36,399 bases of DNA, taken from a virus. The notes under the pieces were generated by a model. It did not search any database. It worked only from the letters and a program-made list of their open reading frames with translations, and was not told the origin of the DNA. This document shows, in pieces, positions 8,272 to 31,622 of the stretch. A program made the translations under genes and the position numbers. Numbering within the stretch: the first letter of the stretch is position 1; each line of letters starts with the position of its first letter. The stretch is taken from IMG/VR virus record IMGVR_UViG_3300023178_000131, positions 1-36,399 of that record; one strand, 5' to 3'.

Positions 8272-11200
8272 ATGTCAAATTATTATTATAGTCCAGAATC
8301 CTCAGGAGTTAAAACATATTGGGAAGAAGATTGGGCGGCACGGAAGTGTAAGATTTATTTTAAAAATGCATTATTATTTCAATTTAATTTACCTACAAAT
8401 GCATCATCAATTCCGCCAGGTTATGGATGTATTCCAAATGCTTCAGGTTTATATAAAGATGCTGTTGCTCATCGTGGAAATCTTCAGTGGGATGCAGGTA
8501 CAAAGAAAAGATATCAAATTCGAGTAAGGAGTTGCCATGATCAAACTTACCTCAGCGGCAGTTGGTCTGGGTCCGGTTCATTTCTTCCATCCGGCTGGCC
8601 TCTTCCCGCAGGTGGTTCAGGCTCCGGAGGTGGAGGCGGCGGCGGAGGTGGTGTTGGTGGCGGCACAGGTGGCGGATCAACAGTAGGATCTGGTGGTGGT
8701 GACGCAAACATCGCTTGTATGGCTCTGCGCAAATCACTTGGAATGACATTTAAAAAGGTGCCGATTGCTCTTCAGCAAATGAGAGCCACGATCATTAATA
8801 ATTGTAATGATATGATACAGGACATGAAACGTTATGCATTTGAAGAGATTGCAGAAATTGTTCAAGTTTGTACAGCACTTGGTATTAAAAGAGCATACCT
8901 AAGAGGTCTTACTTATAATGTTAATTCAGAAGAAGATATTGACAAATACATTCATCGTTTCAATTTAAATGGTGCATTACCATTTCAAGATCAATCAGTA
9001 CCATCACCAAATGGTGGACGTTTTGCTGATAAAGCTTTCTTTTTTGGTACAAGAAACACTATCATATTGCAAGCAATTCGTATTGATGGCGAGCCGTTTT
9101 TAGTTGTAGATGGTGAAGATATCAAAACAGTTGAAGATCAAAAACTACCTTTAACTGCATTCATACCAAAATATCGTCCTGAAGGTGACAGTGTAAATCC
9201 TTTCATGCCTTGGTTACCATACATGACTTGTGATTTGTTGTATAATATTCCAAATCCTGATGAATGTATTACAACAATTGATATTTCAAGTCAAGCGACA
9301 AATCCACCAGACTTAAACATGTTGGTGCCAATTGGAGATAATCCTGCTCCTTACACAGGACCGAATAAAGGATTTCCATATTCAAAAGAAGTAAACCCAG
9401 AGCCTAAGCCATTAAGATTGGTTATGGATGGTAGTCCAGTTGAAGGTGAGAAAGTTATTCTTGCTAATCGTTTTGAACTTTCTGGTATTGTAAAAGTTTC
9501 TGCTGGTGAAGAGGTAGTAGTTAATATTCAAAACAAAGAAGGTGGTGATACTGGATCTACAATTGAAGTTCTTGATAGTCCTTGGGACCTTGAAGATGGT
9601 GATACGATTATTCTTGATCCTACAACAGTTGACGCAAATACTGCTAATAACAATTGGGATTTTATATTTGAAAATCCTGATGGTGAACCCTCTGACGGTG
9701 GTGACGGAATACCTGAACCTCCTACAGGAAGAGATCCTGAAGATGGACCTGATATACCACCTGAAGGACCGAGAAAAGATCCTGAAGATGATGGTGAACC
9801 AACACCTCCTGGTGGACCAGGTGATGTTGATGATGATATCCCTAAAACTGATTATGATGATGAATGGGATGGTGAAGGCGGTGGCGGTGGCGGACAGGAC
9901 AAACTTGAATTTCCAATTAAAAATGAAAACGGTCAAGCTACCAGTGATAGAGAATTACCGAAGGCTGAAGAGGATCCTACTGATGATGATGATCCTGGTG
10001 CTGTTGTAGGCCGCCGTAGTCTTCCTGCTTCTTATGCTGGTAAAGCGATTCTACAACGTGACCCTATTACAGGATTCGAAAGTAAGTATTTAACAGAATT
10101 AAATCCTGGTGATATTGTTGAATTACAATTTGAAGAAATGATTATACCCGGAATATTCTATTCAATTGGACATGGCTTTATCCACTATAAAGGAACATAT
10201 TTCCAAAAATCGTACAAGAAAAACATGCATATTGTTTTTGGAAACGTACAATATGAAGTAACTGGACAAAGTGGAGGTGGCACATTAACATATAAAGGAT
10301 ATACTTTTGAATATGATAACGTATATTCAGTTAACAGACTTAAAGAGCAGTTTAGACCTGAAACTTACGGTTCGGCAAAAGCAGAAACATTTGCTCAATT
10401 ATCAACTAAAGCAAGTTTATATCCAATGATGAACAATGTTAAACTTGGATACATTGTGTTTGAACCAGGTGGTTCTGTTGACATATCAAAAAATAGATCA
10501 GATGGATCTGATCCAGCACTTGATTACTTTGAAAAGGGAGACCTAATTAGTCTTGGTGGTATTGAATATCGTTTTCAAAACATTTATAATGGTCAATTAA
10601 GAGGTGTATATCGTGTTGATGGTTCTGATATTGGAGGAGGTGTTGAAAATTCAACTCTTGTAAGAGCAGCAAAAGTTACAAGAGCCATGGCTCAAAATGA
10701 GTATTCGCAGGCAATGATTCTTCCATATAGATCATACTACGAAGTAAATCAAATTCACTCTGATACATCAATGACATTTATACCTAACTTCAGTATGGGA
10801 ACTAACTATGAAGGTAAATTGTATCGTGTAGGATTTAATATTCGTTCAACATCAAGTTCACCAGATTTACGAAATTCTGGATTTTCTGAAAGAGGATATG
10901 CACAATTCTTGCCCGATGGTTCAGCAACAGATAATAGCCGAAACTTCTATTTACCAGAGGCTTCAACGAATGCTGCAATTATATACAAAAATAATGAGAT
11001 TAATTCAGATGGTGGTTTTGGAGGTGCAAGTGTACAAGGAGTGGTATCTGTAGATAGTGCGTTACGAGGTAAATTTTTCAATCATGTATTTCATGGACCA
11101 AATCATTTAAAACATACTAAAGGTGCTGTAGTTTTCCCAGGTGATTATGATTTGAGAATTGATGAAGAAGAAAAGGGTGAATTGTATTTCTCAAATGGCG

Positions 11201-11940
11201 ATGACCGGTATATCATTCTTGAAACGATGAAAGACAATCATCCAATTTCACATGGTTTTTCTGCGGGTGATCGTTTAACAATTCAAAGAGTAAAATATAA
11301 CCCAGATTTCTTCACAGATGAACCATATGGTAAATTAATTCGTTATACTGATCCAAAGTTTGTTAGTGCCCCTATGCAGCAAGCAGACTATAAAGATTGT
11401 GGTATGCTTATTGAAGTTGCGGACATTGTAAATCCACATCGGTTCAAGGTGCTGAAGAAAGGTCCTTCTTGTGGATCAAATGCAGCCAAGTTCTTCCATG
11501 ATTATGATAAAGATGCCGACTATTACTTAACAGCAACAAATGGCGGAATACTTGAATTCTGGGCAAAATATTTCAATGCAGTATTCATGGATGGAACAGT
11601 TACTGCTGATAGTGAAAATGAATATTTAACTTATAATCCAACGAGAACATTTAATTTATGCTCAAAAGGTACAAATAGTAATAAACTAAAATACAATTAT
11701 AAAATGGATGCATTCACTGCTTCATATAAACTTGGTATGACTGCAGTTAATTTAACGATGTCAGGAAATAAAGTATTTTTAAATCCTTCGACATCAACAG
11801 CAGATGGTACATATATTTTTAGTATTAAAGATTCTGTTACTGCTCCACCTAGATTGCTCGATGTGTTTCCATTGAGAGTAGTTGAATTTGAAGTTGTAGA
11901 TACCAATCCTGTAAATCAAGAAGTTTACTACCTAGGATAA
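8272..11940 (+). CDS. Unknown 1222-aa structural protein with Gly-rich and acidic Pro-rich linkers
   Basis: No family is recognised. A Tyr-rich N-terminus (YYYSPESS) leads to a domain of about 100 residues, then a linker of almost pure Gly/Ser (about 112-145, including a run of 10 Gly). A helical segment (about 148-215) follows, then a globular region, a Pro/Glu/Asp/Gly-rich acidic linker (about 468-580) with PEDG/DDD clusters and another Gly run, and a beta-rich C-terminal half of about 640 residues. Two flexible hinges joining folded domains suggest an extended virion component, probably attached to the baseplate given its place between gp5 and gp25. Start ATG 8272 follows the previous stop by 12 nt with only a weak GAGAG upstream. 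The codons over the Gly linker are GC-rich (65% G+C in 8581-8700). Confidence 0.75.
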   Translation: MSNYYYSPESSGVKTYWEEDWAARKCKIYFKNALLFQFNLPTNASSIPPGYGCIPNASGLYKDAVAHRGNLQWDAGTKKRYQIRVRSCHDQTYLSGSWSGSGSFLPSGWPLPAGGSGSGGGGGGGGGVGGGTGGGSTVGSGGGDANIACMALRKSLGMTFKKVPIALQQMRATIINNCNDMIQDMKRYAFEEIAEIVQVCTALGIKRAYLRGLTYNVNSEEDIDKYIHRFNLNGALPFQDQSVPSPNGGRFADKAFFFGTRNTIILQAIRIDGEPFLVVDGEDIKTVEDQKLPLTAFIPKYRPEGDSVNPFMPWLPYMTCDLLYNIPNPDECITTIDISSQATNPPDLNMLVPIGDNPAPYTGPNKGFPYSKEVNPEPKPLRLVMDGSPVEGEKVILANRFELSGIVKVSAGEEVVVNIQNKEGGDTGSTIEVLDSPWDLEDGDTIILDPTTVDANTANNNWDFIFENPDGEPSDGGDGIPEPPTGRDPEDGPDIPPEGPRKDPEDDGEPTPPGGPGDVDDDIPKTDYDDEWDGEGGGGGGQDKLEFPIKNENGQATSDRELPKAEEDPTDDDDPGAVVGRRSLPASYAGKAILQRDPITGFESKYLTELNPGDIVELQFEEMIIPGIFYSIGHGFIHYKGTYFQKSYKKNMHIVFGNVQYEVTGQSGGGTLTYKGYTFEYDNVYSVNRLKEQFRPETYGSAKAETFAQLSTKASLYPMMNNVKLGYIVFEPGGSVDISKNRSDGSDPALDYFEKGDLISLGGIEYRFQNIYNGQLRGVYRVDGSDIGGGVENSTLVRAAKVTRAMAQNEYSQAMILPYRSYYEVNQIHSDTSMTFIPNFSMGTNYEGKLYRVGFNIRSTSSSPDLRNSGFSERGYAQFLPDGSATDNSRNFYLPEASTNAAIIYKNNEINSDGGFGGASVQGVVSVDSALRGKFFNHVFHGPNHLKHTKGAVVFPGDYDLRIDEEEKGELYFSNGDDRYIILETMKDNHPISHGFSAGDRLTIQRVKYNPDFFTDEPYGKLIRYTDPKFVSAPMQQADYKDCGMLIEVADIVNPHRFKVLKKGPSCGSNAAKFFHDYDKDADYYLTATNGGILEFWAKYFNAVFMDGTVTADSENEYLTYNPTRTFNLCSKGTNSNKLKYNYKMDAFTASYKLGMTAVNLTMSGNKVFLNPSTSTADGTYIFSIKDSVTAPPRLLDVFPLRVVEFEVVDTNPVNQEVYYLG

Positions 11941-11943
11941 TCT

Positions 11944-13320
11944 ATGCTCGGAACAAAAGGTATTATCAGTGGTCTACCAACAATGCCTAAAGGATTTTTT
12001 AAAGGAGGTTTAAGCATTGGCGGTGTAAAAGTCGTAGCAGCAGAACCAAAGCCAGCACCAGCTGGACCTTGTGGTGCATATGATGAAACAAAAGGTATGA
12101 CTGATTGGCCGACTGCAAGTAATTCAGATATAATTGGTATCACAAATAATGGAATTGCTTGGGCTGGTAAGGATGGTAGAAATGTATCATACGTTGATGT
12201 TGAATTAAAACAAATTTTTGAAACGGTGAAGGGTAATTCAGATTTATTGTGGAAAGGTATATTAAAAGAATTTAGTGCAGCTAAAGGTTTTAAGTATTAT
12301 TTGGTCACTGGTTGGACAAAAGCAAAAGGTTGTAGAATGTATTATACAAATCACCTTGCAGAAATGAAAAGTCTTGATAAGCATCTTAATTTGAAGAAAC
12401 ATGACCCGCCAAAACCAAAACCTGTTACATTTGATTTGTCAAATTCAAGTAACTGGAGGAATTTATTTAAAGCACCTCACCTAGCAGAACTTGACTTTGC
12501 ATTAAAAGAAAAAACAAAATTTACTGTACGTGGTTTGGAAATATTGTTAAATTTCAAAACTTATGTTGACTCTGGGAAATATACCACAAGACCATTACAT
12601 ACAAATAGAGGGAAGGCTTGGTTTGGACCTTACTCTGGTGTATTTTCTCGATATCAAAATGGAACTGACTCTTGGACTGCATTATGGTGGTGCTTTGTAG
12701 GTGGCAATACAGATAAATCATGGAAAAGAACAATGAGCAGATCAGGAGCAACAGATGCTAAAGAGATGTTTGACTACCAATGGAATTGGTTTCAATCAAA
12801 ACGAGGTACAAGATGGTCGGAACAAGGACTTTCAACATATGACTGTATGAGTGATCCTTGGTACTGGCCAGATGGTAGTGAAAATGATTTTGGAAGAAGA
12901 GGGAGAGGTGATCCAGGTATTCATCCAAAAAGAGATCAATATTTTAAAGTAATTTTACAACTTTGGGAATATGATTATCCAGATCCGAAAGGTGGTAGAA
13001 AACCCGGATTAGGCTGGCAGTGGTTAAAAAAAGGTACGGGTGATAAACACCTTGAAAAGTTAAGAAGAGTGTTAAAAATTGAAGGTGAGCTATATGATTC
13101 TGGTTGTAAATTAGTTTTTCAAGGTGTTCCAAATCGTAGTACGGCAGGAACATTTACAGCCGTATCATATGGTTTTTGCACATCAATTTCTGGTGGTGGT
13201 GCAGGTTCGGTGAAAGGATTAGCAAGTGCAGCAAAACCAGCGGCTGTAACAAAGCCATCATCAATTAGTGGAAGTTCTGCATCAGGTGGCACAAATAAAA
13301 CAATGTCGAGAAGTTTTTAA
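11944..13320 (+). CDS. Unknown 458-aa tryptophan-rich protein
   Basis: No homology is recognised. The start ATG 11944 has AGGA overlapping the previous stop, about 9 nt upstream. The N-terminus has Gly/Pro/Ala-rich low-complexity sequence (about 10-45), then a domain unusually rich in Trp and aromatic residues (about 100-400; for example SWTALWWCF, YQWNWFQSKRG, DPWYWPDGSEND, GLGWQWLKKG). It ends in a Ser/Gly/Ala/Lys-rich tail (about 415-458). About 20 Trp in 458 residues is far above average; such surfaces often bind sugars, but that is only a guess here. It lies 3 nt after the 1222-aa gene and 9 nt before the 697-aa gene, so the three form one transcription unit. Confidence 0.72.
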   Translation: MLGTKGIISGLPTMPKGFFKGGLSIGGVKVVAAEPKPAPAGPCGAYDETKGMTDWPTASNSDIIGITNNGIAWAGKDGRNVSYVDVELKQIFETVKGNSDLLWKGILKEFSAAKGFKYYLVTGWTKAKGCRMYYTNHLAEMKSLDKHLNLKKHDPPKPKPVTFDLSNSSNWRNLFKAPHLAELDFALKEKTKFTVRGLEILLNFKTYVDSGKYTTRPLHTNRGKAWFGPYSGVFSRYQNGTDSWTALWWCFVGGNTDKSWKRTMSRSGATDAKEMFDYQWNWFQSKRGTRWSEQGLSTYDCMSDPWYWPDGSENDFGRRGRGDPGIHPKRDQYFKVILQLWEYDYPDPKGGRKPGLGWQWLKKGTGDKHLEKLRRVLKIEGELYDSGCKLVFQGVPNRSTAGTFTAVSYGFCTSISGGGAGSVKGLASAAKPAAVTKPSSISGSSASGGTNKTMSRSF

Positions 13321-13329
13321 GGAAATAGT

Positions 13330-15423
13330 ATGCCAACAAATTTATTTACAAGTGGAAGTTTTTTTAAAAAAATCAAAGGTGTTTATGACAAAGTTGTAGG
13401 TACTGCAACTGTTGTTTGCCCTGAAGTTATCATCAACAAGAATTGGAATCCAGATTCACAATATGTTGGTGATGCAATGAAAGTACCTTCGAAAAATTTT
13501 TATGACTATTTAAGTCCATGGCTTGCACCTGATCCAGCATTAAAAAGTGGAAACTATACAGACAAGAAAACACTTAAAAAACATAAAGGTGTTGGACTTG
13601 GTCAGGATCCATATAATAATGATCTGACTCGAGCATTAGACCGAGAAGAGTTTAGTAATCCAGGTCCTCTCGCTATGGCAATGGATTATCAAGAATGTGG
13701 TGAAGTTATTATGAATGTAGGATATTATAATGATCACATGGCTTGTAAGAAGAATGCCTCAAGTGGTAGCCGCATTTATCGTACAGTTGATTTCTCGCAA
13801 CATGATATGGATTGGGAAGGTGACTGGGGAGATGTTAAAAATGGATTTCAAACTGGTGTTGCACTTCAAATATTTGAAAGACACCACAATCAAAGAGTTC
13901 CTGGTGGAGTTACTGGTGGTGTAAATGAACCTACAGGTTCATACACACAAGTTTGGATAGGTTCAAAGTCAGACCAATCCCCGACAAATGCAAGTCCAGC
14001 CGCTAAACATATGACAAGTCCTACAGCATCTCCTTATACTAAAAGGCAATCTTCACACAAAAAATTTTACAACCAACATTTTTCTACTGGTTATCATCAT
14101 CAAGGTAATGGCGGCACATCAGTTGATGTACACATGGCATTTATACCAAGAAGACCTTATGATGAAACTCTTCGTATTAATGCGATTAATGGTACTCGAG
14201 CCGGTAAATATGATTTTGTAGATATAAAATGTAAAAATCCCAGTCTAAAAATTTGTCTACTTGGAGAATGTATTACTGTTACGGTACCTGTCTGTTGGGC
14301 GCTTGATCCAATTCTTGATATTATCAATGAAGTATTTCGAACTCTTTTTGGTAAAGATGATATCTATAGTTCAGAATCAAGAATAAAGGTAACAATTGTT
14401 GGTAAACAATTTTGTTCAATTGATGGTGATGAATTTATGCACCATCCTATAATGAGAAATTGGCATCCAAACGATACAACATCAATTGCAAATATTGATA
14501 AAAAGGAATTTAATTTTACTCAGTTTTATTATCCAAATATTACTAAAAATCCATTATTTGCTTACGCTAAAGATTTCAATTGGAAAGAACCATACTTTAA
14601 GAATGAAGTTGTTGAAAATGGAACTTATAATGATCGCATACAGATAGAACATCCTCTTCTGAAAAAGTATAAATATTTTACACCATCTTTATTTTCATTA
14701 TTATATGAAACAAATATTGGAGTGTTTTATGATCAATTAGCTAAACAAATGCAACCGAAAGGTATTGCATTAAGCTATCACACTAAACTTAATGGTGGGT
14801 TTAATGAAGATTCACCTAATACTCCAAAAGAAAAACAAAAAGAATGTCTGGCTGATATTTTATTTCCAACAAATCTTAGTAAATGGAATGATAAGATTGA
14901 AAATGGTTGGGGAAATCATTCAGCTAAAAATACAACTCATTTAAAACAATATCTTGATTGTTCTTCAATACCAGCTTCTCCGGGTTCTGCACTTCCTGGT
15001 GACTATTCAAGTGCATTAGGACGATATGGAATATCTGGTAGTAGTTTTGGTGAAATTGACAATATCATAGGTTCGTTTTCACTTATGAAAGGACTGGTAA
15101 ATTCTAATGGTGCAGATGTTGATAAGTGGACTCAATCGGCAAATACACACTATAAAGCATTGTCTACTGGAAGTCCAAAAAATTTGGCAGTAAAACTCGC
15201 ACAATATATTTGCTGGTATCTTGAACCAAATGGTGTCGCTGACCGAACAAGAACTTCGGTTCGTGCGCTGTATGAATATGAAAAACATATTGATGACCAA
15301 ATCGATGATTACAGAAAAGCAGCCGGCTGTGGTGCAAATTATAAAAAATATCATATTGTAGGAACAGATAAGTATGCAAGAGAATGCGACACCGAAGAAT
15401 ACAACTACCTCACAAACGGATGA
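13330..15423 (+). CDS. Unknown 697-aa structural protein
   Basis: No family is recognised. ATG 13330 has a good AAGGAAA Shine-Dalgarno. The sequence shows an amphipathic N-terminus (FFKKIKGVYDKVVGTATVV), a His-rich middle (about 250-285, GYHHQGNGGTSVDVHMAF), a hydrophobic Cys-containing strand pair (about 305-330, LKICLLGECITVTVPVCW) and a Cys-dotted C-terminus. The mix of Gly/Asn/Tyr loops and beta strands fits a virion protein. It sits in the unknown block between gp5 and gp25. Its 3' end overlaps the 59-codon gene at 15374 by 50 nt in another frame. Confidence 0.7.
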   Translation: MPTNLFTSGSFFKKIKGVYDKVVGTATVVCPEVIINKNWNPDSQYVGDAMKVPSKNFYDYLSPWLAPDPALKSGNYTDKKTLKKHKGVGLGQDPYNNDLTRALDREEFSNPGPLAMAMDYQECGEVIMNVGYYNDHMACKKNASSGSRIYRTVDFSQHDMDWEGDWGDVKNGFQTGVALQIFERHHNQRVPGGVTGGVNEPTGSYTQVWIGSKSDQSPTNASPAAKHMTSPTASPYTKRQSSHKKFYNQHFSTGYHHQGNGGTSVDVHMAFIPRRPYDETLRINAINGTRAGKYDFVDIKCKNPSLKICLLGECITVTVPVCWALDPILDIINEVFRTLFGKDDIYSSESRIKVTIVGKQFCSIDGDEFMHHPIMRNWHPNDTTSIANIDKKEFNFTQFYYPNITKNPLFAYAKDFNWKEPYFKNEVVENGTYNDRIQIEHPLLKKYKYFTPSLFSLLYETNIGVFYDQLAKQMQPKGIALSYHTKLNGGFNEDSPNTPKEKQKECLADILFPTNLSKWNDKIENGWGNHSAKNTTHLKQYLDCSSIPASPGSALPGDYSSALGRYGISGSSFGEIDNIIGSFSLMKGLVNSNGADVDKWTQSANTHYKALSTGSPKNLAVKLAQYICWYLEPNGVADRTRTSVRALYEYEKHIDDQIDDYRKAAGCGANYKKYHIVGTDKYARECDTEEYNYLTNG

Positions 15424-19596: not shown

Positions 19597-21441
19597 ATGT
19601 CTAAAATACCTAAAGAACATATAAGTGAATTAGATTTTAATGAGATACGAAAAAACTTTCTTAGTTATGTACAAAATAATTCTGAATTTGCGAATTATGA
19701 TTTTGAAGCCTCAGGTTTAAATTTTGTTATTGACCTTCTCGCCTATAATACACAATACAATGCCTTTTACTTGAATCAAATCTCAAGTGAAATGTACTTA
19801 GATACAGCACAGAAGAGAAAGAATGTTGTATCAATTGCAAAGCAAATGGGCTACACTCCTCGCTCAAAGAAATGCGCCACAGCAAAAGTATTACTTCGTT
19901 TAACAGGCGTTGAAAATTTCCGCGGTCCTCTCCCAGTTGAAAGATATACTGAATTTATTGGTAAGAATATTAATGAAGATACATTTCCTTTTGTTCTAAG
20001 AAATCGTGTTAATGTTTCAAAGCTAAGAAATTTTGAGGAACCTCTAACACTTATTCAAGGATCATATCAAAGAGAAGAAATAGTAGTTAATAATCTCATG
20101 CTTGAAAAAAGATATGAAATACCAAGTAGAGATATTGATCTTGATACTCTTGAAGTTTATATAAAACCATTCCGTGAATCACAAGAAAGAGAAAGATTTT
20201 TTCGAGCCGATGATATAACACTCGCAAATAAAGATTCAAAAATTTATTTTATTGAACAAAATTATGAAGGTAAGTATGAATTAATATTTGGTGATGGTAG
20301 ATTAGGTAGAGCAGTTAAAAATAATAACTGTATTGAATTGCATTATCTAGTCACTCGAGGAACGGAGGGTAATGCTTGTGTTCAATTTCGTTTAAAAAAG
20401 AAAGATGAAATATCTGTCAATCATGTGATACGAACAATTGATCCTTCAGGCTCTGGACAAAATGAGGAAGATATTGAAACAATTCGGTTAAGTGCCAGAA
20501 AATCTTTCATGAGCCAAAACAGGTTAGTTACTGTGAAGGATTATGAAATTGCATTATTAAGATACTTTAATTATATTGATACTATTTCTGTTTGGGGTGG
20601 TGAAGACAATGATCCTCCTTCATATGGCACAATTTTCTGTGCAGTAAAACCAAAAAATCAAATTGCACTTTCAGGCATTCAACGGTCAGAAGTTTATAAC
20701 AAACTTAAAGATTTAAGCATTGTAACGATTACACCCAAAATAATTGATCCGATTTATACGTTTTTAAAATTAAATTGTAATATAATTTATAATGCAGAAG
20801 AAATTACTTCCACTGAAGGTGTAATTATAAATGAAACAAAAATACTCTTACGAGATCATTTAAAAGAAAACTTATTAAAATTTGAAAAACAATTTCATAT
20901 TTCAGATGTTACTCGTTTAGTTGATAAACAAGATGAAAATTATATTGCAACTCATGTTACAATAGCTTTGTATCAAAGAATTAATCTTGATATTGGTATT
21001 CCAAGTTTTTATAAAATAAATTTCAATAACAAAATTAAAAAAGGTTCTCTCAGAGTTTCTTCTTTTGATTATGTTGATGAACATAATAATTATATAAAAA
21101 ACTGTTACTTAAAAGAAAGTAATGATTTTGATGGAAATGTTTCTGTGGTTAATGATATTTCAATTTCAGGCAAAACAGAAACTACTATGGTAGCTAAGAA
21201 TATCGCTAAAATTGATTATGAAAATGGTTTATTTAAACTTGAAACATTTCTGCCATATATGGCAGAAGGTAAAACAGAATTAATTGTTACTGTTGATCCA
21301 GACACATTTATTATTTCTCCATCAAAAGAACAAATATTGGCTGTTCTTGAAGAAGATATTGAAATTACACCAGAACCGTTTGTTAGCCGTGTCAAAAACG
21401 AACAGACACTTACAAAAAATGGGATGTTTAAATCCTTATGA
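19597..21441 (+). CDS. 6: gp6-like baseplate wedge protein (gpJ family)
   Basis: The 614-aa product (T4 gp6 is 660 aa) has the conserved N-terminus: YDFEASGLN (34-42), DLLAYNTQYNAFY (46-58) and SSEMYLDTA, followed by KQMGYTPRS, equivalent to YDFEGSRLN...DLLAYNT...NGYLPTS in T4. Mid-region sequence YELIFGDGRLGRAV (about 227-240) is the typical gpJ-type FGDGxxG turn. gp6 forms the continuous ring that holds the wedges together and is the TssF counterpart in type VI secretion. It is three bases after gp25 and ends in ATGA overlapping the giant gp7-like gene, as expected for the 25-6-7 wedge order. Confidence 0.92.
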   Translation: MSKIPKEHISELDFNEIRKNFLSYVQNNSEFANYDFEASGLNFVIDLLAYNTQYNAFYLNQISSEMYLDTAQKRKNVVSIAKQMGYTPRSKKCATAKVLLRLTGVENFRGPLPVERYTEFIGKNINEDTFPFVLRNRVNVSKLRNFEEPLTLIQGSYQREEIVVNNLMLEKRYEIPSRDIDLDTLEVYIKPFRESQERERFFRADDITLANKDSKIYFIEQNYEGKYELIFGDGRLGRAVKNNNCIELHYLVTRGTEGNACVQFRLKKKDEISVNHVIRTIDPSGSGQNEEDIETIRLSARKSFMSQNRLVTVKDYEIALLRYFNYIDTISVWGGEDNDPPSYGTIFCAVKPKNQIALSGIQRSEVYNKLKDLSIVTITPKIIDPIYTFLKLNCNIIYNAEEITSTEGVIINETKILLRDHLKENLLKFEKQFHISDVTRLVDKQDENYIATHVTIALYQRINLDIGIPSFYKINFNNKIKKGSLRVSSFDYVDEHNNYIKNCYLKESNDFDGNVSVVNDISISGKTETTMVAKNIAKIDYENGLFKLETFLPYMAEGKTELIVTVDPDTFIISPSKEQILAVLEEDIEITPEPFVSRVKNEQTLTKNGMFKSL

Positions 21442-24400
21442 GTTCACCCAGAGATTTAATTGAAAGTCAATTTCCGAATTACTTTCTTGAACAATATCCA
21501 CAATTTGTAAAATTCATTGAAGAATACTATGATTTTCTTGAATCATCAATAGTGATCTTTAATGATCCAAAAGATTGTAAAGTCGGTGATATAATTTATG
21601 GTACGTTATCAAAAGCTAAAGCAATTATTAAAATTGCGGCAGACGGCAAATTTTATTTTGATTATAGTACAGATACCAATACATTCTATAAGAATGAAGT
21701 TGTTTTAAATGGAACAACAGGACAGATCTATATTATTAAGAATGTCTATCAAAATATTTTTAACTTCGCTAAAAATATGGAGAATGATACGGCATATGAT
21801 ACTGTCCGCAATCTCTACAAAAAATATTTCAAAAGAAATATTTCTCTTGACCATAGTATCTTTCGCCGATTAGATCCAAATACCCTCACAAAAAGAATTC
21901 TTGATTACTATCAAAAAAGAGGTACTGAAGATTCCATGTATTGGTTCTTTAGAATTTTCTTTGATGATGAGATTGAATTATATTATCCTAAAGTTGACAT
22001 ACTCCGTCTTTCAGATACCAATCATATTCAAAGACGTTGGATGCAAATTGATGTTCATGCAACTGTTGAACGTTTTTACAATACACGAATTGTTGGAGTA
22101 AAAAGTAAAGCAACTGCAACTGTAAGAGCAACTGAAGTCAAGGAAAGATTTAATACTGTACGAGCATATCTTGACCTGATTTTTATCAACGGTACATTTG
22201 AAGCAAATGAAGAAATTATAGGATATGATATTATTACAGGCCAAGAAAAGGCAAAAAATACTGTAAGAAAAACAGTTGGTAGATTAAAAGTTCTTGATGG
22301 TGGTATTGGACACCATATGAAAGATGAATTTGGATATGCTGATGGTGTCGGTGAAGTTGTCGGTCAAGAAGAATATTCAGTTACACAAATTAAAGTTCTT
22401 AATCCAGGATATTTACATTCACCTGGTGATGTAATTGAATTTGATAATGAATATCGTGGTGCAACCGCATTTGCAAATGCAGAGGTTCAAACTGTACAAA
22501 CAGATTATCAGTTTTCAGATTATGCATTTCATTTAAACACTGTAATGAAATATCAGCAAGTCAGTTCTTTCTTACATATGAACTTGACTGATTTTATTGC
22601 AAATAATTCTCCACTAGTTTTTCAAAACGCAAATACAGCATCGCAATTGCCCGGTGATTGGAAAGAACTTGGACCAATTGATAAACTTCAAATCAACAAA
22701 TCAGGTCTAGAATATAAGTTTGCACCTGCTGCAAAAGTTATCAATACAAACAAAGTTGCACATATCACCAAGTATTTTGATTTAACATTTGATTTGCAAC
22801 ATCCAAATACATACTTGATGGACGCAAATACATTTGTTTTGATTGATGGTGAGCCTGCTTATTTTCAGGGTGTAAAATCAATCAGCAATAATATCTTCTT
22901 GTCAAATACAAATTTGCTGACAGAAGATTTCCATGTTCATCGTTTTATTGCACCTCGCTGGCTTGAAGCAAACAATCAAATTGCTACTGCAAACATTCAA
23001 TTCTATACATCAAGTAATACACTTCATCTTTCTGATATTCTATTTGATACTCACAATAAAAATGAATTGATGACTTTGCCAGTCAAGGCACTTCATTCAT
23101 GGGAAGGCCTTGCCAATGTATCACAGATTGAACCCGAACTTGGTTATGGTGTAGCAAGAGTACAAGCAACTCAAGCAGGTTTACTAGCAAAAGCAAAAGA
23201 TAAAGTAAAGTTTCTTGACAAACCAGAATTGAGAGAATATGATCATCCTAATATCATACACGGTTTATCAGCAGAACTTGGACTTGAAGAAACTATACTT
23301 TTTGATCCTATTCCATTCTTCTTAGAAAATAATAGTAATCTTTCTTCTGAAAAACATATTCAAGATAATTACTATTATCAAACATATTCATACGAAATTA
23401 TCACAAGTTTGAAGCCAGAAGAAATTGATATGAATTTGTTTGATGATTTACATCCTGCTGGTTTTATTGCGTTTGTAAGAAATCGTATTGATTGGGAAAT
23501 GCAACAGCATTTAAAAGTTACTGCATTTCCTAAAATTGAAATTTATACTGAAACTGCAAAATGTATGGTTGATACGCATGAAGAAATTCAACGTATACAA
23601 ATCACACATAAAAAGATGGAATCACAATCTACTGAAGAACGAGATTTCTATACATTTGTAGAAGTTGATGCCAAGGTTGATGGTACAATTAAAGAAACAG
23701 AAGTATATCCAAGATTTGAAGAAGTTGCTTTTGTTGATGTATTTGAAGCATTCCGTTTATATGTTGAAGATGTATTGATTCGTCCAGAAAGCAGTACATT
23801 CACTGAATTCCGTAAATGTGAAGGTTCGTCATTATCTTTTGACCACGGATCTACAGAGCATGATCCACTAGATTTTGAAATAACATTTGACTCAATTGAA
23901 ACTGAACCACCTTGGGGTCGGTTTTCTCATACAGGCGGATGCAAGCTTACAGGTTATGGCACATCAAAGGAATTTCAAACATTAATTACAGAACAATTTC
24001 ACTATGATGGTCATGTAGCCATTGAATCATTTATTAAATTAGTCAATGTCGAAGATAAAGCTAATTGGAAGACAGATTTAATTGAAGCATTCGGTGGTAA
24101 AATTGGAGACCGAAGAGACCAGCCAATTAATAATCATGTTGCTACTGTTGAAGAAATTATTGAACGCACCGTTGGAAACAATCCAGGTAAAAGAATTTTA
24201 ATTCGTGATTCAATGGGAGAAGCATCACGAACATATTTTGATACAGAACATTCAAAAAATAGTCACACTGATAAATTCTATGATGGCTTTCCGATCAACT
24301 TTACAGAGAATCCATTCTGGACTTGGGACCTAGATAAAGATGCATTTAATGCGGTATCATTGGGTGTAGATCCGCTTGAACCAGATTTTTCAGATGATGG

Positions 24401-27400
24401 TGGTGGACCGAAACGATGTACTGCCGATTGGCATGATCATAATGCAAGAAACTTTTCAAATGAGCCAGCCAAATCTTATACACCAACAATTTCTGGTAAC
24501 ACAATTGAATATCGTGGCTCTTACTTACCAACCACTGAGGTGTTAACAAAAAATCGTGGCTTTGTTCAAATTCAGAATATACAATTAAGTGATATTGTTG
24601 GAACAATTGACGATAAAGGCAGAACCGTTTGGTTGAATCCAACTGAAGTTATTCGTCAAGATTATACTGGATACATGTATCGTATTACGGATTATAATCG
24701 TATATCATTTCATGTAACACCGAGACAAAACTTAGTTTTATTTGATAGCCGTGAGTTACCAGATATTAAAGCTGAACTTTGGAAAGCAGAACGAATTCAA
24801 TTACCAAGAATGGTAAATCATAGTTTTGGTATTGTTGACCATACATCAGTATCAATGACTGGTAATTCAGTTACAGATTATATTCCAGTTACCAATTGTC
24901 ATAAATTTTTAGTTGAATATTCAGGACCTGTTTATTGTTTACTGTTTGCAGATTATAAAGAAGGTGTTCCTGCAACCGATAAGATGAGAATTGGTGAAGC
25001 AGATATGGATTCCTTACATATTGCTTTAGAAATTCGTGATGAAAGATTAATGCCAAAGGTTGATATTCCCACAGAACAACCGACAATATGGAATTATGAT
25101 CATCTAGATAGTGCTATTCGAATTGATATGAGCAACTTCCAATACAATATTTCTTCAAATAGTATTGTACTTGGTATAGCAAATACACGTTTTGAGGAAG
25201 CAAAATTAAACCATGCCAAAATGTTGAATATTGATGGTCCACTATTTGACCGCAATATGGGATGGTATGATAGGACGACTTTTGATTCAACACAAGGTGC
25301 TGAATTCTCTGATACATCCGAACGGTTTAAGGTGTTCACAACAAGAATGCATTCTGGTCAGTCACTTGCAATTACAAGACCGCCAGTAGTTGTTGAAACT
25401 CCATTGATTATGGATACAAAAGTAAACATTGATTATTATACAGACATTGGTGGATTCTTACCAGATAGTCCCTACTTTGAAAAGGCCAATACAGCAAACG
25501 GTGAAATACAAGAAAAACAAAATGTAGAAATGATACAATACACAATGCTTGATTTTGGTGATCAAAGTGCAATGATGAAGCCAATATCAACATTAACGTC
25601 AGAAAAAGATATTGGATTATATCCAAAGTTTGGAAATTTGAAAATGTCTTGGGACAATCAACCACTTGATATGCCTTGGGAACCATATGGTTCACTGGAT
25701 GCCGCAAATACAACTGTATTACAGGTTCGAAATCAAAGGTTTGATTCAAATACTGTTTTGAATTGGGGTTCTACATTCGGTGCAAGAAACTACGATAAAA
25801 TGCCTGATGAACTTTTAAGATATAACAGTTTATTTGATTCAATTGAAGATGTCTTTACATTTGATAAAACAAGAGCCAGGTTCTTAAAGAACGAACAAAC
25901 TATAATTGCAGATCAAATATTAGTAAGTGAAGCAGACGGAAAGGTTCCTGTCAGATATGGAGGTTCTGAACAGGTGCGCATTCGTGAAAACTTTGGTACT
26001 GCTATTGTCGCAACGATTAAAAACTACAGAATAGACCCAAAAAAAAAATTCTTTGATAGCTTAATTTACACATTTGATCGTGATTATAACAAAGCTCAAT
26101 ATAATGAAGAAGGTTGGGATAGCGGACATAGACCAAGTCTCCTTGACTTAGAATGTGTCCACTTATTCTTCGATGCAGATGGTATTGATTTTGGTAGGTT
26201 TGATATTCAGTATTATACCCGTGATTTTGCTCCAAAAACTCTTGACAATTCGGCACTCAACTTTACACAAACTGATACTAACTGGGATCGATATGGTTGG
26301 CTCTACAAAGATTGTAGTACACGTTACACACCACATCCATATGATGAAAGTGATACAAATATAACACTCAATCTCAAAATGATTTATGAGATTGATGGCT
26401 ATGGACCACACAATTATGCTGCAGCATTTGACGATGGAGATAACCGATATGGATGGGCACGAACTAAGTTTCCAGGATTTGATAATAGCCGAGGTGCGAT
26501 CAAACCATACATTGATCCAGAATATGTTATCACAATTGATGGTGGACACACACCATTTGAGCCAACTGCTGGTGATTGTGTAATTGAAATTGATGCCGCA
26601 CCGTTTAGAGATGTTGAAGCAAAACTTGTTCTTGAACAACCACTAAGATATATTCACGGTCCTTTCTTTGACCGACAAAAAACAGATACAACATTTGACC
26701 AAACTTGGGAACCAAAGTTTGATGATATACATTCAGGTCATATACCTCCGTTAATGGCTGAATCTGTACAAGTACTAGTAAATTATAATGATGTGTACGT
26801 CTGTGACTACGGATGGATTTATCACCATACAATAGTTGATCGTTATTTGAAAATGAAGATACATCCATTCCTAGACAGAAGAGGTGGATGTCCACCAGAT
26901 ACAACTGAAGGAACAGTTGCCGTAGGTGATTACTACTTCTACAATTTTGACCATGAAGACATGAGTATTGAACTTGAAGATGTAGAAACAATTGTTTATC
27001 ATGCACCATCAGAAGTCCAAGAAATTATTGAAACAATTCAGACACAAGAAATTGAAGTTGTCACTGAAATTCAATCCTGCAAGCCAATCCGATATACAGA
27101 TACTATTTCATATTTTGAAAGGTACTTCATTCAAGCTTACATAAATGATGATTGTCCTGGACCAGATCGTTTACAAAGACATGAGTTGTTCTTATGGCCA
27201 TCAATCATTAATGATGTGAAATTAAACATGAGAGCATATGCATGGCAAGCAATCTATACAGATGAAATAAATTCAAATACAGCAGAAGTGGTTGTAATTA
27301 CAGATGGATTTGGAGATGTGAAACTTGATTCATATTGGGGTGAACATTATGTACATGTTGACCAACCAATACTTTCAAGGAATTGTGCAATTGCAAGAGA

Positions 27401-30400
27401 AGATAAAATCAAAACATTCTATTGGACAAAAATTACAGATTGCCATTTGAGAGAACCGATTCGAGATTATACTCGAGACTTGGTATATACAGGCAAAGTA
27501 AGTCAAGAAACAATTCAACAACAACTGCAGGCACCGAATACATGGATTGTTGAAGCCAATACATGGCCGACATATACAGCACACCAGCACATTGAAGGTG
27601 AATTTGGTCTTCTTGAAAAGTTGACTGAAGTTGAGATGGGAATTCCAATTAATGACCGTTGGAAATATTTGGCACTTGATAATATTATTAGTGAGAAATT
27701 CTGGGATATAATTGGAAGAGATATACAGAGAAATGAAATTGTACAAAGCAACCTACAACACATTCCGACAGTTCGTATAAAAGGTTTGACAAAAATACGA
27801 AAGAGTGATGAAGTAATAACAAACTCAACTGCAAACATTGTATCATCTTTAATTCGTTTTGCAGATCAAGATGTTGAAATGATGTCTGAATTTACAGAAG
27901 AGAATGAAGAAGAAATTATAATTAATATGAAAGACCGTGGTAAGATTATTGATTTGAATGATATTATTGCAGCTAAGTTCTGGAAATATATTCAGCCAAA
28001 TATGGACAATTATGAAATTACAGATAATCCTTGGGAATATATTCCAACTGTAAAGGCTACTGCTTTCAATGAAATTGAGCAGTATCGTTCAAACAGTATG
28101 ATGGCTGTTGCTAATCCAGATACAGTTCAAAGTACAAGAATTAAAAAGAAAAAAGCAAACACTTCAAATGCAATTAGTCATACAATGCCACCGGCTAGGG
28201 AAGCACCGAGAGTCGATAGCCGTGATGATTTCCATCGATTCATTGAAGCGGAGTTTCGACTTGATGATAATCCAGAATTAGAATATGTGGTAGATCTGAG
28301 AGACCGCTGGATGTTATTAGACTTAGATGATATTATTGCACCAAAATTCTTTGAGTTGCTACCTGCACGACCACAAATTTATACCATTTCTGATTATGTT
28401 GATGAATATATTCCAACTGTAAGAGCAGTTGCATTTAATGAAATTGAACAATATCGCAATAATGTGATGACTGCAACATATGAATCAATGACAACAGTAC
28501 CATTTACTCAATCAGTTGAAACTATACAAACAACTGATGAAGAAAATGAAATTGAATATGTAATTGATATTTTAGATAGAAATAAAGCTATTGATCCAAA
28601 TAAAATTATTGCTGCAAAATATTATGACTATATCTATGAGAATATGATGAGATATCCAATTTTAGATTATGTGCTTGATCGTATTCCAGTTGTGACTGTT
28701 GACAGTAGACCATCAATTCGTGTAAAGAATGAGCATAAGTATAATTTGCAGGCAAATCTATTCTTTGCAACAACACTCACCGGTGAGAACCTACACCAAG
28801 AGATTGATGTATCTCATGATACAGATGAAGATAATGAAGTTGAATATGTAATTAACATGTTTGACCGATGGCGCACAATACCTCTTACAGAAAAGCCTGT
28901 TGAAGGTCGTTGGGAAAATTGGGTTATAACTAAAAAATCTTTGATCTATCCTATTGTTGAAGATGGTGGTGGTTATATGCCAACCGTAAGAGTTGATCCA
29001 TTGCCATCAATTGTGCCAACAAGAGAAGAGAAACACGACCTTCAAAACAATACATTTCCGTATACTGTAATGACAGGAGATTTCTTATCTTCTGTAGTTG
29101 AAATGAAGCAAATAGTTGATGAACATACTGAACTTGAACATGTAGTAACATTGTGGGCTGACTATACAATCAATCTTACAGATAGTATTGGTCCTTGGTA
29201 TGATGAAGTAATCACTGAAGCACTTCTTGAAACGAAACTAAGAGACCAATATTATACTGCACACACTCCGAAATTTAAAACACTTCCTGAAATTGAAGTT
29301 GTTTATGAACATAATGCAAATTTAGAATACTTTACAACATCAACAATGTATGATGAAGCAACATTCAATGATGTGACTGGTGAAGTTAAACTTGAAGGTG
29401 AACATGAAAGAAACATTCATATACCTGATCGGCATCGCTTAGTTAACATGAATGACCGTATACCTCATTATCTTGCGGCTGAATATCTTCATGATAGTGT
29501 TTGGTTTGATTTAGATAAAGAGATTACTTGGTATGATGGATATGCAATGCCAAGAATGACAATTGACAGTAGACCATCAATTGAATCGTTACGAACATAT
29601 CATCATGACATTCAATCGAATACATTCCTGTTTGAAACAACAACACATGATTCATATATTGAACAATCGTTTGAAACTACACCAATTAATGATATTGAGT
29701 TTGAGAATAAGATTGTACAACGAGCGCCATATTTTGATTTGACAAGACCAATTCCAGTCAATCAATGGTTTGGTATGGGATTTGCTCAAGAAATTACTGA
29801 TGAATGGACTAAGTTAAAGTTGACTGATTGGATTGGAGATAAAGCAATCTTTGGTGCAGTTGATCCAGAAGTTTATATTGTAAATGCAAATACAGTGAAC
29901 ATGGCACCAGTATATGATTATGTTTATACTGCACTTGAAGAACAAGCTTTATTTATGAATATGGGTCCAACAACCGAATATCAAGAATTGAATAATGATG
30001 TATTCATGTATAATGATAGTAAAACTTTTGGTATGGAAAGACAAACAAAATCATGGTTTAAAGATTGGGTACTTGCTGATTATTTGAATCATCGTCTACG
30101 TCCAAATGCAACAATACCAACAGTTGCACCAGGACCTCTATCAAATTATGAAGCGGAACAAAGACTTGTCAACCGACCAATGCATTCGGCATATGGTCCT
30201 CAACAATGGGTACAGGATCGATGGACATTTAAAGTTTCTACAGATCCGCAAACAGTTACATCCTATACAGAGTTCACTTTAGATGCATTTGCTGAGAGTG
30301 AAATGATCTTTAAAGAAACATATATCCGTGCCGAAACATTGATTGAAGCAGAAATGCTACCAGATGCATTTGATGAAAATGGAGATAAGATTTCAAGAAT

Positions 30401-31622
30401 TCAACTTGATGAACAAAGATTGATTATGTTCTATCCTGTTGGTATTGAAAAGTTTGGTAAAAACAAAAATCAATTAACTTGGAAGATGTCAGCAAATGAT
30501 TGGGTATCCGAATACATGACAAAACCAATTGAAGAATTTGCACATGTTCCTGTTGATGTATTTGACATGGCTGATATTCGAACTGAAAGTGAAATCTACT
30601 CTCAAATGCCAAATGCGAACACTGTTTCTGGTAATACATGTTTTACAAAACTTGATGAACAAAAATTATCAATGGAATATGTTGCAGAAGGTTCGCCATT
30701 TGCAAACTCAATTACATTCCATAATTCTTATGGTTCACAAAGACTTGGTGTTTACTATCCAAAAGATGCCTGTCTGCCTTTAAGGTCTCGCTCCGAAGCT
30801 TTCAATCAATATATAAAAGCATCAAATGTCAAGCTTCAGGGAGTTGATGCATTATTACCATTGATTGATGATGAATCAGTAAATGCGTTTTCTCAAGATC
30901 CAGGTAATACTCATGGAGGTAACACTTCAACAACTGTTTACAATAAAGACTTATTTTTTGATAAATCTGGTCCAGCATATTTGCTTGATAAAAATCGAAA
31001 CTTTTTCACTGAGTTAAATGATTTAACAGCAAACACTGCAAATAATGGACCTCAAGCAAATCGTACAATTGAAATGGCGTCATTTGAAAGGTATGAATTT
31101 CGAATCACTGATATTGCCAACACACATGCTAATGGAGTATTTGCTTTAGGTTTAGCAGATGTATATGAAAAGAACCGTGCATCTTCGGCTAACTTAATTT
31201 TTGGTGATGCGAATTCAACATATATGGTTGACGGAGTTAAATATACAAATTGGAATGATTATGAAGCAGACTTTGCAAATGGTTCAAATGCAGTAATTAC
31301 ATTCCATCCAACAATTGACTTCCTACATACAAAAGGATTGAATGCAAATACCGCAAATGGAGATACTTGGGAAAAGAGATCAGGTGTTTGGAATACAGCC
31401 GGATGCGATATAAAAACTGGTAATACTGTTGCGAATACATTCGAAATATTCTATTTTACAACAGCAAATAATGAAATCTTTAGTGCAGGAGGAATTATCA
31501 GGATTTACGAACTAAATATGTTAGAGGCTTATGATTTTACTATAAATAAAAAAGAGTACTTAGATAACATAAGAACACTACCAGAAATAAATGATTATAT
31601 AAGTTCTGATTGTATTGCGTGA
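21438..31622 (+). CDS. 7: Giant gp7-like baseplate wedge protein (3394 aa) with a Hint-like domain and internal repeats
   Basis: The position after gp6 and before gp8 and the N-terminus (SQFPNYFLEQYPQFVKFIEE then YYDFLE, residues 8-35) match the gp7 wedge protein of marine T4-like phages. T4 gp7 (1032 aa) is the outer wedge arm that starts wedge assembly with gp10 and gp8. Here it is more than three times longer in one open frame. Regions: the gp7-like N-terminus and beta domains (1-about 1020); a Hint/intein-like segment (about 1028-1175); a long Asp/aromatic-rich part (about 1200-2050) with recurring GP(L/F)FDR units; eight degenerate repeats of about 95 aa (about 2060-2840); and a C-terminal region with ANTAN(N/G) linkers (2841-3394). 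An A10 tract occurs at 26039-26048. The start is coupled to gp6 by ATGA. Confidence 0.75.
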   Translation: MSSPRDLIESQFPNYFLEQYPQFVKFIEEYYDFLESSIVIFNDPKDCKVGDIIYGTLSKAKAIIKIAADGKFYFDYSTDTNTFYKNEVVLNGTTGQIYIIKNVYQNIFNFAKNMENDTAYDTVRNLYKKYFKRNISLDHSIFRRLDPNTLTKRILDYYQKRGTEDSMYWFFRIFFDDEIELYYPKVDILRLSDTNHIQRRWMQIDVHATVERFYNTRIVGVKSKATATVRATEVKERFNTVRAYLDLIFINGTFEANEEIIGYDIITGQEKAKNTVRKTVGRLKVLDGGIGHHMKDEFGYADGVGEVVGQEEYSVTQIKVLNPGYLHSPGDVIEFDNEYRGATAFANAEVQTVQTDYQFSDYAFHLNTVMKYQQVSSFLHMNLTDFIANNSPLVFQNANTASQLPGDWKELGPIDKLQINKSGLEYKFAPAAKVINTNKVAHITKYFDLTFDLQHPNTYLMDANTFVLIDGEPAYFQGVKSISNNIFLSNTNLLTEDFHVHRFIAPRWLEANNQIATANIQFYTSSNTLHLSDILFDTHNKNELMTLPVKALHSWEGLANVSQIEPELGYGVARVQATQAGLLAKAKDKVKFLDKPELREYDHPNIIHGLSAELGLEETILFDPIPFFLENNSNLSSEKHIQDNYYYQTYSYEIITSLKPEEIDMNLFDDLHPAGFIAFVRNRIDWEMQQHLKVTAFPKIEIYTETAKCMVDTHEEIQRIQITHKKMESQSTEERDFYTFVEVDAKVDGTIKETEVYPRFEEVAFVDVFEAFRLYVEDVLIRPESSTFTEFRKCEGSSLSFDHGSTEHDPLDFEITFDSIETEPPWGRFSHTGGCKLTGYGTSKEFQTLITEQFHYDGHVAIESFIKLVNVEDKANWKTDLIEAFGGKIGDRRDQPINNHVATVEEIIERTVGNNPGKRILIRDSMGEASRTYFDTEHSKNSHTDKFYDGFPINFTENPFWTWDLDKDAFNAVSLGVDPLEPDFSDDGGGPKRCTADWHDHNARNFSNEPAKSYTPTISGNTIEYRGSYLPTTEVLTKNRGFVQIQNIQLSDIVGTIDDKGRTVWLNPTEVIRQDYTGYMYRITDYNRISFHVTPRQNLVLFDSRELPDIKAELWKAERIQLPRMVNHSFGIVDHTSVSMTGNSVTDYIPVTNCHKFLVEYSGPVYCLLFADYKEGVPATDKMRIGEADMDSLHIALEIRDERLMPKVDIPTEQPTIWNYDHLDSAIRIDMSNFQYNISSNSIVLGIANTRFEEAKLNHAKMLNIDGPLFDRNMGWYDRTTFDSTQGAEFSDTSERFKVFTTRMHSGQSLAITRPPVVVETPLIMDTKVNIDYYTDIGGFLPDSPYFEKANTANGEIQEKQNVEMIQYTMLDFGDQSAMMKPISTLTSEKDIGLYPKFGNLKMSWDNQPLDMPWEPYGSLDAANTTVLQVRNQRFDSNTVLNWGSTFGARNYDKMPDELLRYNSLFDSIEDVFTFDKTRARFLKNEQTIIADQILVSEADGKVPVRYGGSEQVRIRENFGTAIVATIKNYRIDPKKKFFDSLIYTFDRDYNKAQYNEEGWDSGHRPSLLDLECVHLFFDADGIDFGRFDIQYYTRDFAPKTLDNSALNFTQTDTNWDRYGWLYKDCSTRYTPHPYDESDTNITLNLKMIYEIDGYGPHNYAAAFDDGDNRYGWARTKFPGFDNSRGAIKPYIDPEYVITIDGGHTPFEPTAGDCVIEIDAAPFRDVEAKLVLEQPLRYIHGPFFDRQKTDTTFDQTWEPKFDDIHSGHIPPLMAESVQVLVNYNDVYVCDYGWIYHHTIVDRYLKMKIHPFLDRRGGCPPDTTEGTVAVGDYYFYNFDHEDMSIELEDVETIVYHAPSEVQEIIETIQTQEIEVVTEIQSCKPIRYTDTISYFERYFIQAYINDDCPGPDRLQRHELFLWPSIINDVKLNMRAYAWQAIYTDEINSNTAEVVVITDGFGDVKLDSYWGEHYVHVDQPILSRNCAIAREDKIKTFYWTKITDCHLREPIRDYTRDLVYTGKVSQETIQQQLQAPNTWIVEANTWPTYTAHQHIEGEFGLLEKLTEVEMGIPINDRWKYLALDNIISEKFWDIIGRDIQRNEIVQSNLQHIPTVRIKGLTKIRKSDEVITNSTANIVSSLIRFADQDVEMMSEFTEENEEEIIINMKDRGKIIDLNDIIAAKFWKYIQPNMDNYEITDNPWEYIPTVKATAFNEIEQYRSNSMMAVANPDTVQSTRIKKKKANTSNAISHTMPPAREAPRVDSRDDFHRFIEAEFRLDDNPELEYVVDLRDRWMLLDLDDIIAPKFFELLPARPQIYTISDYVDEYIPTVRAVAFNEIEQYRNNVMTATYESMTTVPFTQSVETIQTTDEENEIEYVIDILDRNKAIDPNKIIAAKYYDYIYENMMRYPILDYVLDRIPVVTVDSRPSIRVKNEHKYNLQANLFFATTLTGENLHQEIDVSHDTDEDNEVEYVINMFDRWRTIPLTEKPVEGRWENWVITKKSLIYPIVEDGGGYMPTVRVDPLPSIVPTREEKHDLQNNTFPYTVMTGDFLSSVVEMKQIVDEHTELEHVVTLWADYTINLTDSIGPWYDEVITEALLETKLRDQYYTAHTPKFKTLPEIEVVYEHNANLEYFTTSTMYDEATFNDVTGEVKLEGEHERNIHIPDRHRLVNMNDRIPHYLAAEYLHDSVWFDLDKEITWYDGYAMPRMTIDSRPSIESLRTYHHDIQSNTFLFETTTHDSYIEQSFETTPINDIEFENKIVQRAPYFDLTRPIPVNQWFGMGFAQEITDEWTKLKLTDWIGDKAIFGAVDPEVYIVNANTVNMAPVYDYVYTALEEQALFMNMGPTTEYQELNNDVFMYNDSKTFGMERQTKSWFKDWVLADYLNHRLRPNATIPTVAPGPLSNYEAEQRLVNRPMHSAYGPQQWVQDRWTFKVSTDPQTVTSYTEFTLDAFAESEMIFKETYIRAETLIEAEMLPDAFDENGDKISRIQLDEQRLIMFYPVGIEKFGKNKNQLTWKMSANDWVSEYMTKPIEEFAHVPVDVFDMADIRTESEIYSQMPNANTVSGNTCFTKLDEQKLSMEYVAEGSPFANSITFHNSYGSQRLGVYYPKDACLPLRSRSEAFNQYIKASNVKLQGVDALLPLIDDESVNAFSQDPGNTHGGNTSTTVYNKDLFFDKSGPAYLLDKNRNFFTELNDLTANTANNGPQANRTIEMASFERYEFRITDIANTHANGVFALGLADVYEKNRASSANLIFGDANSTYMVDGVKYTNWNDYEADFANGSNAVITFHPTIDFLHTKGLNANTANGDTWEKRSGVWNTAGCDIKTGNTVANTFEIFYFTTANNEIFSAGGIIRIYELNMLEAYDFTINKKEYLDNIRTLPEINDYISSDCIA
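24519..24965 (+). other. Degenerate Hint (intein-type) domain inside the gp7-like protein
   Basis: Residues about 1028-1175 follow the block order of a mini-intein. Block A: SYLPTTEVLT (1028-1037) then KNRGFVQIQNIQLSDIVGTI, like the usual C/S-x-x-x-x-TEVLT..GF..I..I..GD.V. The N2/N4 part is EVIRQDYTGYMYRIT. Block B: FHVTPRQNLVLF, where the usual VTPxHxxLV has Gln instead of His. The WKAERIQLP linker follows. Block F: VEYSGPVYCLLF (1159-1170), like YxGxVYCxxV. No terminal His-Asn-Cys/Ser/Thr follows. No homing endonuclease is present; the size (about 145 aa) fits a mini-intein. With block B His and block G missing it should not splice. Confidence 0.6.
27618..29970 (+). repeat. Eight degenerate tandem protein repeats (about 95 aa each) in the gp7-like protein
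   Basis: Units begin near 27618, 27893, 28262, 28533, 28821, 29114, 29392 and 29686, a period of about 285 nt. The second unit is longer because of a Lys-rich insert (IKKKKANTSN). The consensus is roughly E-x-E-Y-V-I-x-(M/L)-x-DRWxxIDLxDIIAxKFWxYI, then a YxIxDYxxEYIPTVR, then (A/S)xxEIExYRxNxM. Units 2 and 3 share EYIPTV and AFNEIEQYR with high DNA similarity (28035-28110 against 28409-28480). Units 4 and 7 share an exact 20-nt stretch (28699-28718 and 29563-29582) coding for SRPSI. This shows growth by internal duplication. Confidence 0.8.
31541..31548 (+). promoter_or_regulatory. Candidate T4-type late promoter (TATAAATA) for gp8
   Basis: TATAAATA, the exact T4 late -10 box, lies near the 3' end of the gp7-like gene, about 108 nt upstream of the gp8 ATG. 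gp8 is the one gene in this run set off by a 34-nt gap with its own strong ribosome site, which makes a separate promoter plausible. Motif plus position only; chance matches are common in this AT-rich DNA. Confidence 0.35.

Follow-up and report, generated by a model that had tools for sequence, protein, structure and literature searches.

The gp7-like baseplate wedge gene

The window, i.e. the whole stretch of 36,399 nucleotides that we analysed, comes from an uncultivated T4-like phage. It encodes a giant protein whose N-terminal part aligns with the gp7 of other phages:

21438..31622, + strand: gp7-like baseplate wedge protein of 3394 aa, which contains the Hint domain (ORF)
21447..23792, + strand: residues ~4-785, which align with the gp7 of other phages (profile built from 42 of these proteins)

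The ORF matches the Pfam family Baseplate_wedge (PF23786, 4.4e-11) and the baseplate wedge family PHROG_17744 (9.6e-29), with gp6 (PHROG_219) upstream and gp8 (PHROG_438) downstream. This homology and the gp6-gp7-gp8 order identify it as a gp7-type wedge protein. A profile built from 42 other gp7 proteins (760-1400 aa) covered residues 6-782 (score 227). T4-like gp7 wedge proteins (PF23786) are homologous to residues ~4-785 and share the gene order, but those that we examined have no detectable Hint domain and are mostly 500-1700 aa long, against 3394 aa for the carrier. Among the other gp6-gp7 loci, that of Synechococcus phage Sf-CH1b has a gp7 of 3640 aa (L025:1832-12754); the two giant proteins have little in common outside the N-terminal part.

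Further along the gene, a divergent tandem repeat with units of ~100 aa, unrelated to the Hint domain, occupies 27582-29762 (residues ~2049-2775); for example, residues 2154-2225 match residues 2277-2348 with E = 2e-19. Elsewhere in the window, PHROG_230, a family of baseplate tail tube caps, is matched by each of two adjacent ORFs, at 1712-2692 (1.3e-4) and 2694-3593 (6.9e-19), which are possibly a gp48/gp54-like pair. At 8272-15423, the baseplate cluster contains large ORFs of 1222, 458 and 697 aa, for which family matches are weak or lacking.

A Hint domain in the C-terminal extension

An earlier note on this sequence had described a splicing-dead Hint domain at 24519-24965 within a baseplate wedge protein. 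The ORF is indeed gp7-like, but the domain starts ~240 residues past the end of the gp7-alignable section, outside the conserved wedge part and inside a lineage-specific extension of ~2,600 aa. Its features are as follows:

24519..24983, + strand: Hint/intein-derived domain, residues ~1028-1182, C-terminal limit approximate (profiles, hhalign, AF2 model, PDB fold search)
24519..24548, + strand: block A, SYLPTTEVLT, residues 1028-1037, Ser1028 replacing Cys1 (alignment, translation)
24558..24599, + strand: GFVQIQNIQLSDIV, counterpart of GWKxFxDxxxxDxxA in phage inteins (alignment)
24708..24743, + strand: block B, FHVTPRQNLVLF, Thr1094 (B:7) retained, Gln1097 replacing His (B:10) (alignment, translation)
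24912..24947, + strand: putative block F, VEYSGPVYCLLF, residues 1159-1170, Cys1167 at F:4 (C-terminal profile, alignment; alone not significant)
24948..25022, + strand: expected site of block G (RRNGxxxxGN followed by S/T/C in phage inteins), block absent (C-terminal profile, alignments)

Translation placed the block strings quoted in the note in frame where it had put them: GFVQIQN starts at residue 1041 (24558) and TPRQNLVLF spans residues 1094-1102 (24717-24743).

When a 200-aa segment was compared by tblastn with 50,697 phage records, matches were weak (best E = 1e-3). Those at E <=0.05 with host genes that we examined were inteins aligned in the same register: in Prevotella phage Lak-A1, in the ribonucleotide reductase of Vibrio phage 1.161.O (Pfam Hint 2.8e-6), in a mycobacteriophage phosphoesterase and in the prohead protease of an uncultured phage. 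A match in gp6 of phage Sf-CH1b (E = 9) was taken as chance. Pfam, NCBIfam and PHROGs yielded sub-threshold matches of intein type to the segment (phrog_85 thymidylate synthase, 0.003-0.03; Tes intein, 0.011-0.1; intein_Nterm, 0.08-0.24), and the other matches, such as NIR_SIR_ferr at 0.005, were regarded as chance families. The segment retrieved no intein from the PDB by sequence search. Searches with blocks A-B found no match in bacterial genome contigs and only the known sister variants in viral contigs.

To limit circularity, we built a profile of blocks A-B from 12 further phage inteins gathered via the Lak intein, leaving out the gp7 sequence, and the background comprised all ORFs of the window plus 3,522 ORFs from the gp6-region loci of other phages. 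This profile matched residues 1031-1101 with E = 1e-8 (runner-up 2.2), and a second one, from 62 IMG/VR inteins, gave 5.5e-11 on the gp7-like ORF (runner-up 0.48). Profile-profile alignment with hhalign reached a probability of 97.8 (E = 7e-13). With the phage-intein profile built without the domain, the real sequence scored 39.7 bits, against at most 8.1 in 5000 shuffles. Independent intein profiles and hhalign thus agree on blocks A and B in the order of the Hint family; the blocks seen by the earlier note are real, and the profile search that it proposed shows a Hint domain. Its block F-like motif fared less well. VEYSGPVYCL aligns with the block F of phage inteins and is the sole match of the C-terminal profile in the whole protein, but block F alone scores 6.6 bits, within the range of 5000 shuffles. 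The motif stands by eye, by position and by alignment; its position, its form in the sister variants (VEYxGxVYC) and its place in the multiple alignment together make the assignment credible. Judged by sequence, residues ~1028-1182 are a Hint/intein domain, and its closest kin are phage inteins of the ribonucleotide-reductase/thymidylate-synthase type. A small tree built from blocks A, B and F unites the gp7 copies of all three variants in a single clade with a long stem (1.84 changes per column), a pattern consistent with one old capture; no donor could be named from this tree.

The predicted structure agrees. AlphaFold2 failed on the three sister sequences alone (pLDDT 29.5), and with the 62 phage inteins in the alignment it returned a Hint horseshoe beta fold (pTM 0.68; 40 residues with pLDDT >=90; blocks A-B at ~80-94). 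All 50 PDB matches listed in a fold search with this model were inteins, BIL or Hedgehog domains (best 6zgq, 1.1e-6). The Hint fold expected by the earlier note is thus predicted with intein rows in the alignment, and for this reason the fold result partly inherits the assumption of homology, which the sequence statistics do not.

Loss of the splicing features

The gp7 family keeps T6, E7, L9, T10 and G14, positions that are non-catalytic and invariant or nearly so across phage inteins, as well as ThrB:7 (T67). It differs from phage inteins in having Ser for Cys1, Gln for the block B His and Phe for the Trp that follows the conserved Gly. An active class 1 intein requires Cys or Ser at position 1, where all variants have Ser1028. 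Among 80 phage inteins sampled from IMG/VR this position was Cys in 80/80, a count somewhat biased by a retrieval pattern that, for some of the set, gave preference to CY. The block B His was present in 78 of the 79 that were readable. According to the literature, no intein residue is more conserved than this one, HisB:10 (of the TxxH motif); of the two listed exceptions, one is a pseudogene, and the other relies on a lysine at another position (PMC4031507, PMC3196547). Every variant that covers the domain has Gln1097 in its place, together with Ser1. G-N-S/T/C is the C-terminal ending of nearly all of the 80 IMG/VR inteins, and with 305-405 aa most of them have space for an endonuclease. In the gp7 domain, profiles and alignments found no C-terminal Asn junction followed by Cys, Ser or Thr (block G) after block F, and there is no room for a homing endonuclease because blocks B and F are only ~56 residues apart.

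The earlier note was therefore correct that a Gln (Q1097) replaces the block B His and that block G is missing. Its term 'splicing-dead' fits the combination of Ser1, Gln at B:10 and absent block G, as well as the literature on inteins lacking HisB:10 (PMC3196547, PMC4031507). By these residues, the domain is a member of the Hint superfamily that does not qualify as an active intein. Class 3 inteins are marked by a Trp in block B, CysF:4 and a Thr in block G (partly PMC3196547, partly general knowledge). We rejected this class for the domain, which has CysF:4 but lacks both block G and a Trp in block B. BIL and Hedgehog autoprocessing domains keep the catalytic Cys1 and the block B His; with Ser at position 1 and Gln at B:10, the gp7 domain departs from them in both residues.

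Distribution, variants and selection

We found three distinct variants of the domain, all on metagenomic contigs: that of the window, one represented by L002, L003 and L004, and L005. Two fragments (L006 and L026) show no difference from the window wherever they align with it. Profile searches detected no Hint domain in the gp7 of other gp6-gp7 loci, several of which are incomplete; a weak match at L093 lies in an upstream ORF, not in gp7, and looks like chance. Hence, the Hint module is lineage-specific in gp7. The earlier note had considered, as an alternative, an ordinary gp7 beta domain common to all relatives. This did not hold, since the profile of 42 gp7 proteins stops at residue ~785 and the gp7 loci examined lack a Hint domain. 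The comparison of homologues that it suggested found the domain only in the sister variants, all with the same residue losses. Homologues of the flanks (residues ~786-1027 and from 1181 on) were not detectable outside the sister variants, so an empty insertion site could not be shown. As no empty allele was found, we infer the insertion origin of the domain.

Pairwise dS between the three variants is 0.74-0.96 over the Hint domain. Across this distance the domain shows neither gaps nor stops, and its dN/dS is 0.13-0.15 (0.08-0.10 for blocks A-B). The values are 0.09-0.14 for the core of gp7 and 0.17-0.28 for the segment after the Hint domain, i.e. higher than in the domain itself. These results argue for purifying selection on a domain that is maintained rather than decaying. 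The earlier note had spoken of a 'decayed or domesticated' intein; because of this selection the second term is the better one, and the first fits less.

Origin and fate of the domain

We think it likely that this is a domesticated, splicing-dead Hint fold, a former phage intein retained under purifying selection as a structural module of the baseplate. A phage intein of the ribonucleotide-reductase/thymidylate-synthase type would have entered the long C-terminal extension of the giant gp7-like protein and then lost its homing endonuclease, its block B His and its C-terminal splice junction. These losses would have made the intein permanent. The Hint fold would remain in the mature chain, and thus in the virion, neither spliced out nor cleaved, and may give the baseplate a rigid, beta-rich module for spacing or docking, where purifying selection would keep it.

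Other readings share part of this evidence. The domain may cleave itself without splicing, in the manner of Hedgehog and BIL domains: an N-O acyl shift at Ser1028 would cut the chain into a gp7 of ordinary size (1027 aa) and a second protein of ~2367 aa. Ser is a legitimate nucleophile at position 1, all variants retain Ser1, ThrB:7 and CysF:4, and the Tko CDC21-1 intein is active without HisB:10 by means of another residue (PMC4031507). Residues 1-1027 also match the length of gp7 in related phages (1016 aa in HTVC008M, 1007 aa in phiM12), but gp7 lengths range widely (500-1700 aa), so this match may be chance. Moreover, no residue could be named that would make up for the replaced HisB:10, and Ser stands at position 1 in a family with Cys in all sampled members. 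We find self-cleavage unlikely for these reasons. A stronger version, in which the conserved Ser1028, ThrB:7 and CysF:4 would form a one-sided self-cleaving switch, a device of virion maturation that releases a 1027-aa gp7 and a ~2367-aa baseplate component, seems to us slightly less likely again.

A recently inactivated intein, tolerated and without a role, would account for the loss of the splicing residues and of block G, and has a precedent in an intein pseudogene kept in a genome (PMC3196547). The conservation of the three variants speaks against such a remnant, since blocks A-B have a dN/dS as low as that of core gp7, with dS near 1 and intact reading frames, and it appears quite improbable. 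The lack of an empty site or of any trace of an endonuclease, and the long stem of the gp7 copies in the tree, would also suit an old structural Hint paralogue that was acquired as such and never was an intein. Yet the nearest sequences are phage inteins with a VYC-type block F, not BIL or Hedgehog domains, and we hold this origin to be very unlikely. Finally, splicing might still occur at a displaced C-terminal junction, N1249-T1250 (IVLGIANT): the pattern I/L-G-I-A/S-N-T is conserved across the three variants and looks like a strand with N-T at its end. This junction would lie ~80 residues beyond block F instead of ~25, the block F/G profile does not select residues 1243-1250, and HisB:10 is missing, which leaves active splicing with hardly any likelihood.

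Relation to known inteins and Hint domains

Phage inteins, which occur in ribonucleotide reductase, thymidylate synthase, terminase, portal and prohead protease and mostly have Cys1 and a VYC-type block F, show blocks A, B and F in the same order as the gp7 domain with its putative block F. Sequence identity with the gp7 domain is 20-28% for the IMG/VR inteins and reaches 30% for the Lak intein, and the predicted fold is alike. However, phage inteins have Cys1, HisB:10, a C-terminal GN followed by S/T/C and usually a homing endonuclease, whereas the gp7 domain has none of these and sits in the extension of a baseplate wedge protein. BIL and Hedgehog autoprocessing domains share their fold with the model (2lwy, 6y75, 1at0), but are less similar to it in sequence than phage inteins. 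Two inteins resemble the gp7 domain in lacking HisB:10. One, Arsp-FB24 Arth_1007, is a pseudogene likewise retained in its genome; its exteins total 66 residues and the whole precursor was judged a pseudogene (PMC3196547), whereas the gp7 host is large, conserved, of virion type and under purifying selection. The other, Tko CDC21-1, activates its N-terminal splice site via Lys58 (PMC4031507), for which we identified no equivalent in the gp7 domain.

Our literature search, of incomplete coverage, found no baseplate protein reported to contain a Hint or intein module, nor one with a conserved splicing-dead Hint. Inteins are viewed as selfish elements or, with conditional splicing, as regulatory switches (PMC8987985). 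If our preferred reading is true, a Hint domain stripped of catalysis and under purifying selection in a virion protein represents a third fate, as plain protein architecture. Such a second life, in which a selfish element becomes part of the virus particle, would be unusual, and it would offer a route for the growth of giant structural proteins in phages.

There are precedents for inteins in the head and packaging proteins of phages. They have been reported in terminases (PMC3706429, PMC7156551), and a portal protein annotated as intein-containing was among the inteins that we collected. We also observed, in the uncultured phage LR756508 (L015:3713-5440), an intein with a LAGLIDADG endonuclease inside the prohead core serine protease (Peptidase_S77).
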